DNA from: Protula sp. h YS-2021 | Lineage: Eukaryota > Annelida > Polychaeta > Sabellida > Serpulidae | Direction: 5' to 3' | Assembly (NCBI GenBank): GCA_949752745.1 | Contig: OX457034.1 | Span: forward strand, 8,268,904 to 8,332,903 | Length of the DNA: 64,000 nt | Part shown: positions 20,418-60,782 of the stretch, in pieces | Layout of the letters: the number at the start of each line of letters is the position of its first letter | How positions within the stretch are numbered: the stretch's first letter is position 1 | Translations under genes and position numbers: made by a program | Notes under the pieces: model-generated | Database searches by the model: none | What the model saw: the letters and a program-made list of their open reading frames with translations, nothing else | What the model was told of the DNA's origin: nothing

Positions 20418-23400
20418 CTGCAAACACAACATCCGTAGTCATAGCAACAAGACACAAACAAAACCATACTTTATGTTTTAAACCATGTGCAAAAAAAATG
20501 CTTATATTTTTTTCACGTGAATGGACAAAATGACAATTTCAAAATGCAACATTTTATATTAAATTAAATTTAAATTTTGAAATAACTATTTTTTAAAAGG
20601 TTCTGATTGATCACCTGCACTTGTGACGTCATCATCGACAAGTTCCGCCATGCCATTCTCGACGCCGACGAGAGAAGGATCACTATAAAATGTGTTCCAT
20701 TTACTGCTCGAAACTGCTGCCAAAACTGCTCCCTAAAAAAAGCCAAGCAACAAAACTGTGGTCACCAAAACTGCTCCCTAAGAACGCCAAGCAACAAAAC
20801 TGTGGTCAACAAAACTGCTCCCTGAAAACGCCAAGCAACAAAACTGTGGTCAACAAAACTGCTCCCTAAAAACGCCAAGCAACAAAACTGTGGTCAACAA
20901 AAGACCACTAAAATTTCTCATATTTGCCCCTCTCATATTAAACAACTCCCTCTGTGTAAGACAACGTAATTAAATCTATGATTAAGAAAAGAAGCCAGTA
21001 GCTTTCTGCATGAGAAGGTCTTCGATACTTAGCGCTGAGACGTGTGAACACTTGCAGGAGCCCCACCCCTCCATCCATCCCCCCTCCACCCCCCCGCCAC
21101 ACCTCGATTCGGCTTCGTACATTGGGGTACACTGCTGAGGCATGCAGGCCTCCTCCCTCCCCCCTCCCCACCACTTAGCGATGCGATGTGTGAACACTTG
21201 TAGGAGCCCCCCCCCCCCATCCATCCCCCTCCACCCCCCGCCACCCCTCGATTCGGCTTCGTACATTGGGGGTACACTACTGAGGCATGGAGGCACCCCC
21301 TCCCCCGCCTCCCTACCACTCAGCGATGCGATGTGTGAACACTTGTAGGAGCCCCCCCTCCCCATCCATCCCCCCTCCACCCCCGCGACCCCTCGATTCG
21401 GCTTCGTACATTCGGGTACACTGCTGAGGCATGCAGGCCCCCTGCCTCCCCCCCCCCCCCCCCCCACCACTTAGCGCTGCGATGTGTGAACGCTTGGAAA
21501 TAAGCCGTACGTAAATAGTAGCACACGTGTGTGATGCAATAGGCGACAGAACCATGGTAACCGGTTCTGTCACGATCCCCCTCCCACCCCTCCAGCCTCT
21601 GATCCCCTCCACTACGCCGGTACATACTTTTAGACCAGTCCCCTTGGTGTAAACCTACACGTGTGCACACTGACGTAGAATCAAGATTCTCATCAGCCAA
21701 TCGTCTGCTAAACACTCCTCAAATATGAGGAGACACGGCGCTGTTATCACCACAACCTTCTTTCCTCCCCAGCGCGACCACTGATGAGAATAACACACCA
21801 CACATGACCCCCCCCCCGCCCCCCCAGCGTTTTCCCCCCCTTCTTAAAGCCCTAGATATGTCTACAGTTGCGGGGTTGCCGTTTGAGACTCATACGGATG
21901 CTCTTCTAGCCGAATCCAATCAAGACCAGATAGAATTGTGGGATATTCCTCAGTGCATTCAGGAATCAGGTTTGCACACAACAGCGTTACAGAATGCCCA
22001 GAAGCGTTTTAGTGAGCGGTTGGATATGAGGTGGCGTGGAGGCGGGGAGGAGGAAGGGGGGGGGAGGGGGGGAGGGAGGGGGGTACTGCAAGCTCTTCTA
22101 AACTCTTGCCAATCCGAGAATATATCTTAATGGTATGTGCCCTATTTCCAGGACTATCTCAACATGACAAAGTATAATGTTACAAGCCCGAATTGGATTC
22201 GAACCCGGGACCAACGCTCTAACCAACTGAGCCAATCGTCACCCCACATCATTATAACATGCACTATAATGCCCCATTTTAAGGATAAGCAGGGTATATA
22301 ACATCAAGCCCTATTTTCAACCCCAAGCTATATTTAGACACGCGGGACGGGACCTGGGGGGTGGTGGTTATAATTGTTGCTAAAATGGAGCCTGTTTATC
22401 ACATATTTACACCCCTGCTTGCTCTTGCCCCACCCCCTCCTCCCTCACCCCCCTGCCCCCCCCCCCCCAACTACACAAAAACCCCTCAAACCACCTTGTT
22501 ACTGCTTTGACCTTCAAAACACCAACAATTGTTGCTACTTAATCGATGCAACAACCCAGTTGTTTCACTCCAATGCATGTAATTTGGGGAGTTAAACTAA
22601 GCCACTAGTCAAGGCTGCATTGGGCCGTTCAGTTTTTTTTCTTGTTCATTCGCGGATAACGGGATATTGGGTCTTAGAGTGTTGTCCCAACAACGCCGCG
22701 GCCGGTTGTACTTCTCTGTGGGTACTGATCAAACTATTCATAAAATACACAAAAAATATATGGCTGGACAAAAATCAGATGCTATGAAACATACCAATTA
22801 GGCACTATGCACTTCTCGAGAAATTCAACTGCACGCAAAAAATGCTGTGCTTTTTTTTTTGATATAATTTTAGGCCAGAGTGATTCTACTGGCTGCCTGT
22901 TTGGCTTTGTGTGTTGGAATAATGAAAGCGTTGATGAAAAATCAACCTACTGTCTGATCAGTTACCTATATTTAATTTGTTCATTAGTTCAGTTCCGCGC
23001 TGTTCAGCCTTTTTTTTTTTTGCTCGAGAGCTCACCACGACGCGGGACCTTATTCCCTACACAATCACATCGCCTCGGGGGATATCGGCCTAATATCACC
23101 AAGCATCCCTGTCTGCCCAAATCTAATTTCTTTTTTTTTTCTCCCACCAGAATTTACCAAAAGCATGATTTTCCACAGAAAGAGCTGAAAACTACAACTT
23201 CCGGTTCCAGGGACATATATATATATTTTTTACACAAATTTATAAAGTATTTATTTGATTTTGCTTTAGGCACATTTTGTCTCTATGGACGCGTGACTTG
23301 GCTTACACATTTATTTGAAGCTAAAAATTTACTTGAAATCTCAAAAATAAATAGAGCACATTAATTTTAAAAGCAAAATTTGAACTGGTTTGAATAAGCA

Positions 23401-60782: not shown

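Follow-up and report, generated by a model that had tools for sequence, protein, structure and literature searches.

Tandem repeat arrays copy authentic splice junctions at 5 of the 19 mapped junctions of a CASK gene in what we take to be a serpulid tubeworm, and comparable copies adjoin about 8% of the junctions that we sampled in its myosin and kinesin genes (21 of 265, roughly one in twelve). We consider it probable that these arrays are mirages, i.e., local tandem duplications that span exon-intron junctions and are tolerated since the outermost splice site is the one used, the additional sites (henceforth decoys) being neutral. Apart from CASK, several genes in the three families sampled carry such arrays, whose decoys evolve like the rest of the repeat unit; use of the outermost site would follow from the conservation of the encoded proteins.

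Tandem arrays at the splice junctions of CASK

The minus strand of the window (i.e., the whole 64,000-nucleotide stretch of DNA that was analysed; contig C11, 8268904-8332903) carries a CASK gene of 10 exons, running from position 60782 down to 20299, which we located with a human protein as query and by direct reading. Joined, the exons encode a 383-residue protein with the reading frame kept across 9 of 9 introns, and the first 20 database matches of this protein were animal CASK-like proteins (named or unnamed) with 61-77% identity. The ten exons provide 10 donors and 9 acceptors, which confirms the nineteen internal junctions counted in a first-pass annotation of this DNA. Arrays were identified with Tandem Repeats Finder (TRF) and by direct reading of the sequence, and are listed here in gene order (a slash marks the border within a repeated motif):

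60724..60782, minus strand: CASK exon 1 (coding start to donor)
60642..60724, minus strand: exon 1 donor array, 20 bp, 4.2 copies, reaching 1 bp into the exon
55554..55666, minus strand: CASK exon 2, without junction copy
50082..50187, minus strand: CASK exon 3, without junction copy
36303..36380, minus strand: CASK exon 4
36158..36307, minus strand: exon 4 donor array, 23 bp, 6.5 copies, repeating GCTAG/GTAACG with 5 exon bases
32663..33102, minus strand: exon 5 acceptor array, 32 bp, 13.8 copies, repeating CAG/TCATTACATG with 10 exon bases
32497..32672, minus strand: CASK exon 5
29024..29199, minus strand: exon 6 acceptor array, 32 bp, 5.5 copies, separated from the exon by 7 bp
28841..29016, minus strand: CASK exon 6
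28690..28852, minus strand: exon 6 donor duplication, the junction with a second copy lying 86 bp inside the intron
28490..28689, no strand: assembly gap of 200 N directly beyond the exon 6 donor duplication, cutting off its copies
25037..25159, minus strand: CASK exon 7, without junction copy
24602..24682, minus strand: CASK exon 8, without junction copy; a 35-bp array begins 41 bp into the intron
20721..20902, minus strand: exon 9 acceptor array, 44 bp, 4.1 copies, repeating TAG/GGAGCAGTTTTG with 12 exon bases
20615..20732, minus strand: CASK exon 9
20299..20417, minus strand: CASK exon 10, without junction copy

The authentic junction is repeated by the adjoining array at the donors of exons 1, 4 and 6 and at the acceptors of exons 5 and 9. 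The copies include 1 exon base at exon 1, 5 at exon 4, 10 at exon 5, about 12 at exon 6 and 12-13 at exon 9. All five sites had been named in the first-pass annotation, and its positions and approximate periods hold, except that the exon 5 acceptor array has a measured period of 32 bp rather than about 31. Its view that the arrays reproduce genuine junctions, fill the introns with decoy sites and make them longer is upheld as well. It had further stated that the copies always lie on the intron side: the pattern is as described, but it reflects which copy the protein needs, since tandem duplication itself has no preferred side. The copy at the exon 6 donor is not among the TRF arrays; of its roughly 12 exon bases, 10 are identical. 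At the exon 6 acceptor, where a related pattern had also been noted, the array stops just outside the exon and carries acceptor-like TTTCGCTCGCAG units; we read it as a decayed mirage. The unit of the exon 1 donor array combines GTAAGT with an acceptor-like TTTCTAG end, its units join as TTTCTAG/TAAGT, and one such join resembles an acceptor and a donor together.

Several other features of the locus and genome were recorded. No exons encoding the L27, PDZ, SH3 or early guanylate-kinase segments of CASK (human residues about 387-810) could be located in the window (region 20299-6542), and a genome-wide search for the same part yielded 8 matches elsewhere at 26-48% identity, none at a CASK-like level. 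A 200-N gap is present at window positions 6586-6785. The guanylate-kinase piece ALKVLRTAEFAP is encoded by two different exons (window 2026-2094 and 3301-3366), which may be alternative exons. Beyond CASK exon 10 lies a 33-bp array of 84 copies (window 15969-18737) that is open in several frames. The genome as a whole comprises 863 Mb in 218 contigs, and our placement of the host follows from the COX1 gene of the mitochondrial contig (C218; 21,318 bp): among the best 120 of 7998 matches, the closest named relatives were the serpulids Ficopomatus enigmaticus (65%) and Hydroides elegans (62%), the remaining named matches lay at 55-59%, and three unnamed ones at 66-67%. A lancelet origin, initially suspected since mirages occur in those animals, was rejected on this evidence; a search for GFP-family proteins gave no match but, having no positive control, was given no weight. 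Measured against the usual length of COX1, its frame on this contig (L009) seems to continue about 90 residues past the usual end.

The introns between CASK exon 1 and exon 10 hold 39 arrays with a period of at least 10 bp in 39,335 intron bp, a coverage of 25.6%. Five array edges fall in the zone from 12 bp inside to 7 bp outside an exon, whereas a 25-bp zone at each of 19 junctions would be expected to catch 0.47 (Poisson P 1.3e-4); these five include the exon 6 acceptor array and do not include the exon 6 donor copy. By contrast, a nearby copy of the position's own 24-mer was found at 959 of 4000 random CASK intron positions and at 5 of the 19 junctions, so that junction copies as such are no commoner than copies at random intron positions. 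The excess of array edges at CASK junctions is real, though the gene was picked for its pattern.

We also considered whether the arrays might belong to a dispersed repeat family, either Introner-like or a mobile minisatellite, that inserts at splice junctions. Introners are dispersed insertions and, like the arrays described here, are repeats associated with introns and splice sites; the occurrence of arrays at many junctions in several genes would also fit such a family. However, each unit holds the exon sequence of its own junction. Moreover, when 301 bp of the exon 5 array and the intron part of the exon 9 array were searched against the whole 863-Mb genome (very common words were skipped and only the best candidates scored), each matched its own locus and nothing else, and no second copy of either array was found. 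While Introners are spread across many genes, the exon 5 and exon 9 arrays are thus unique to their locus, and for these two the units are local duplications and not members of a mobile family. We therefore regard insertion of a dispersed family as extremely improbable.

Junction copies in other gene families

Beyond CASK, we sampled myosin heads (50 loci) and kinesin motors (30 loci), using protein queries; the loci were the best-scoring of the 87 and 139 matches listed together with hand-chosen places, and hence are not a random draw. Their 380 exon ends gave 265 unique junctions with a motif-scored splice site near the end of homology; 115 of the 380 lacked such a pick and were dropped, and an uncounted set of exon ends that lay too close to the end of a locus or were duplicated between overlapping loci was also left out. 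A junction copy was defined as a stretch at least 17/24 identical to the 24-bp junction window and located within 400 bp on the intron side. Under this definition the 21 positive junctions were divided between 12 of 134 donors and 9 of 131 acceptors, and 19 of 212 junctions were positive when the splice site lay no more than 9 nt from the homology end. As a control, the junction windows were compared with introns of other loci, with 0 of 685 matching. Among guanylate-kinase genes, our third family, 4 of 22 junctions were positive, of which by eye one is clear (the L007 donor), two are plausible and one is probably chance. Arrays covered 13.7% of the sampled non-exon DNA.

Individual cases differ widely in unit length and in the amount of exon copied. 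A 74-bp unit at the L070 kinesin acceptor is present in 10 copies and includes about 46 exon bases; donors of another kinesin locus (L066) have 141-bp and 30-bp units; one kinesin intron holds 16 further donor copies after the real donor; and a myosin donor (L018) has a 29-bp unit (about 20 exon and 9 intron bases) with 9 further copies. At the L023 donor the unit is 101 bp long with 69 exon bases, each copy consisting of an acceptor-like end, an exon piece and a donor. Further clear alignments were seen at L033, L036, L045 (twice), L074 and L080. Ungapped extension gave as few as 2 shared exon bases at L061, four at L055 and two at the L023 acceptor, and the match at the L002 acceptor (517) resembles a low-complexity chance match. 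At the myosin locus L049, 4.2 copies of a 128-bp unit extend to both sides of an exon end and share about 120 exon bases, so that more than one copy could be the true exon. A separate observation concerns contig C74 (66.9 kb), which repeats the myosin gene of C11:7267119-7278461 with two neighbouring exons about 40 kb rather than about 2 kb apart; it is either a misassembly or a haplotig that carries a large insertion.

Looping or collapse of reads at repeats could in principle create such structures during assembly, and one CASK array is indeed cut by a 200-N gap. Nevertheless, copies within arrays differ from one another by substitutions, the 21 positive junctions are spread over ten large contigs, and the same structure is known in lancelet genes, where, in the part of the report available to us, newer data confirmed one assembled case (PMC3902484). 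An assembly artefact is in our view a highly improbable explanation.

A more serious alternative is that junctions are mutational hot spots, with R-loops, paused polymerase or spliceosome-linked nicks seeding duplications at exon borders. In addition to the array edges in CASK, TRF array edges in the other genes were in excess between -3 and +50 bp (28 vs. 11.8 expected, P 4e-5), as were TRF arrays spanning junctions (12 vs. 4.9-6.4 expected, P 0.005-0.03). The case for a hot spot made from TRF array edges alone was, however, weakened by a matched 24-bp window test and by the distance profile. For the former we used a window of 8+16 and considered edge-type junctions, i.e., those whose copy sits on the intron side only: these amounted to 16 of 265 junctions (6.0%), compared with 1295 of 35,692 intron positions (3.6%; P 0.03) or, when restricted to GT/AG intron positions, 74 of 2190 (3.4%; P 0.02). 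For copies of any kind the direction was reversed, with 7.9% at junctions and 11.5% at intron positions. How large the excess is varies with the window chosen: with 12 exon and 12 intron bases the edge-type count rises to 21 of 265 (P 0.001 when set against the 8+16 control).

The profile of copy rate by distance showed no clear peak at the junction: between the junction, where it was 7.5%, and +300 bp, the rate ranged over 6.0-11.3%; it was 8.3% at -4 and down to 0.8% at 72 bp inside the exon, a fall that would be expected if no unit other than the outermost one can cross the border. The edge-type share did rise near exons, from 2.3-3.8% at +90 to +300 bp to 4.9-6.8% between -12 and +60 bp, a roughly twofold higher frequency close to a junction (within 60 bp) than beyond 90 bp, but in part this is because the exon side cannot hold arrays. 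Donors and acceptors, in addition, were affected equally. We read these results as duplication that is heedless of the border, with about a twofold preference for junctions at most, and not as junction-targeted duplication; a hot spot proper we deem unlikely. The suggestion in the first-pass annotation that junction arrays are far more common than random insertion would give therefore stands for array edges in CASK, the gene chosen for them, and does not carry over to the other genes, where the excess is small.

Splicing decoys and the reading frame

Another possibility is that the decoys buffer or tune splice-site choice, or make variants (the first-pass annotation had proposed tuned splicing and NAGNAG-like variants). 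At first sight retention is high: GT/AG is kept in 91 of 102 junction copies in one count, 98 of 108 copies in 25 arrays keep a usable GT or AG, and many decoys have exactly the motif score of the true site. Yet retention of this order is what the units show throughout. In the 11 arrays with at least three usable copies, the dinucleotide was kept in 82 of 90 decoys, compared with 381 of 413 other GT/AG in the units and 2528 of 2838 for all other dinucleotides in them. Decoy GT/AG are neither purged nor preserved, and evolve like the rest of the unit. An apparent preservation of decoys (101 of 117 vs. 395 of 609 other GT/AG, P 2e-6) was gone with a consensus control inside units, and a weaker hint (P 0.026) was likewise rejected; in both cases the windows had overrun the shared unit, lowering the control.

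If used, most decoys would disrupt the reading frame. Among the 98 intact decoys, 55 would shift the frame, 40 would add an in-frame stop and 3 would be clean (95 of 98 disruptive), and the median unit length is a multiple of three in 6 of 22 arrays (the unit entered for L021 (697) is not its true period). These counts, like those of decoys and extension, omit the L028 donor at 1221 (one of the 21 positives, with its site 38 nt from the homology), use a position of the L033 donor moved by hand to 2020, and receive nothing from CASK exon 1, which has no copies under the thresholds applied. NAGNAG and other tandem splice sites consist of several equal sites in a row, close together and frame-preserving; decoys in the worm are instead spaced by tens of bp and mostly break the frame. 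Taken with the matching evolution of decoys and other dinucleotides, this speaks against tuning and against NAGNAG-like variants. Boundary repeats do alter splicing in some human paralogs, according to the part of that study available to us (PMC2812944); decoys can thus be used elsewhere, which slightly lowers our confidence in the mirage reading, though a functional role for the decoys still seems very unlikely.

With 95 of 98 decoys frame-shifting or introducing a stop, the proteins seem to need the outermost site, and this need points to exon definition. Under exon definition, splice sites pair across a short exon, which leaves copies farther inside the intron without a partner. The mirage reading, which we prefer, would then proceed as follows. 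The serpulid genome appears to make many short tandem duplications (26% of CASK intron sequence lies in arrays, as does about 14% of the non-exon DNA that we sampled), presumably by replication slippage or end joining. By chance, one of them would span an exon-intron junction, and a minisatellite would be born. A duplication inside an exon would alter the protein and probably be lost to selection, whereas one that spans the junction would be tolerated, because the spliceosome, via exon definition, would keep to the outermost donor or acceptor and leave the exon unchanged. Each further copy would become intron; copies would multiply and then decay with no selection on their decoy sites, and the intron would grow from its edge. 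Counting against plain neutral births is the residual excess at junctions (6.0% vs. 3.6% in the matched test, 12 vs. 4.9-6.4 spanning arrays and 28 vs. 11.8 edges): arrays may not arise uniformly, and the CASK gene is an extreme case.

Relation to lancelet mirages and other boundary repeats

Tandem duplication of AG/GT has reportedly been linked to intron gain (Rogers 1989, Venkatesh 1999, Zhuo 2007, Gao and Lynch 2009, and potato RdRp). There, as in the worm arrays, duplication supplies extra splice signals; it makes introns, however, whereas the worm arrays lengthen existing introns at one edge. In CASK intron 4, which has arrays at both ends, the 23-bp donor unit and the 32-bp acceptor unit are unrelated when their consensus lines are compared by eye, so the two borders do not derive from one repeated segment and neither array made that intron.

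The first-pass annotation knew of no named system that behaves in this way, but the available parts of two reports describe the same structure in lancelets (PMC3087553, PMC3902484), and those of a third describe minisatellites at human exon-intron boundaries (PMC2812944). The lancelet duplications, named "mirages" in Adh3, are minisatellite-like duplications of intron-exon borders that were also seen in globin genes (PMC3087553); similar repeats are present in PGBD5, with TnC cited as a further case (PMC3902484), and the genes named across both sources include Adh3, TnC and the globins BflGb6 and BflGb9 (PMC3087553, PMC3902484). As far as these sources go, lancelet mirages, like the worm arrays, are tandem copies spanning the exon-intron border at donors or acceptors, with units of 10-72 bp (Adh3) to 150-160 bp (globin), and many but not all copies keep AG/GT. 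Two haplotypes with 6 and 3 units are reported, variation of copy number among haplotypes and in somatic cells being a described trait of mirages, and the Adh3 data together with globin RT-PCR suggest that mirages leave regular splicing undisturbed (PMC3087553, in the part available).

The worm arrays share the traits of this kind: a minisatellite-like unit that spans the exon-intron border, occurrence at both types of border (12 donors and 9 acceptors in the sample, 3 donors and 2 acceptors in CASK) and partial retention of AG/GT. They differ in their annelid host and in affecting about 8% of sampled junctions rather than single genes. The mirage record comes from cephalochordates, which is no defining trait, while the COX1 of our host is nearest to Ficopomatus and Hydroides.

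Human segmental duplications offer a second comparison. In the part of the study available, variable minisatellites with units of about 30 bp and about 4 copies lie on exon-intron boundaries, accounting for 27 intron modifications in young paralogs, most with alternative transcripts, and repeat-retaining transcripts were reported for 66% of such cases (PMC2812944). Those repeats concern young paralogs that often have alternative transcripts, whereas in the worm the genes are conserved single genes and the decoys are mostly frame-breaking. Among annelids, intronic repeats have been described in earthworm metallothionein, where the available text mentions no junction copies (PMC12783039). Among the papers listed for mirages and boundary minisatellites, judged by title and abstract opening, we found no report of an annelid mirage; relative to that literature, the serpulid arrays extend the known kind to a phylum without a report. 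An estimate of frequency and a test of decoy neutrality are likewise absent from the available parts of the lancelet and human studies compared.

A bolder proposal is that exon borders are a preferred birthplace of duplications, independently in lancelets and serpulids, through damage linked to splicing or transcription, yielding introns grown from the edge and a genome full of near-identical competing splice sites that are reliably ignored by the spliceosome; we think this quite unlikely.

Under the mirage reading, the extra splice sites look like harmless bystanders, and what had been a curiosity of a few lancelet genes is now seen in another phylum, at 21 of 265 sampled junctions. Mirage junctions are natural experiments on splice-site choice, in which the protein demands only the outermost among many copies, and they could serve to test exon definition without transfection. 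They also provide a measurable route for intron lengthening, and one that lays down pseudo-exons with both splice signals, as at locus L023.
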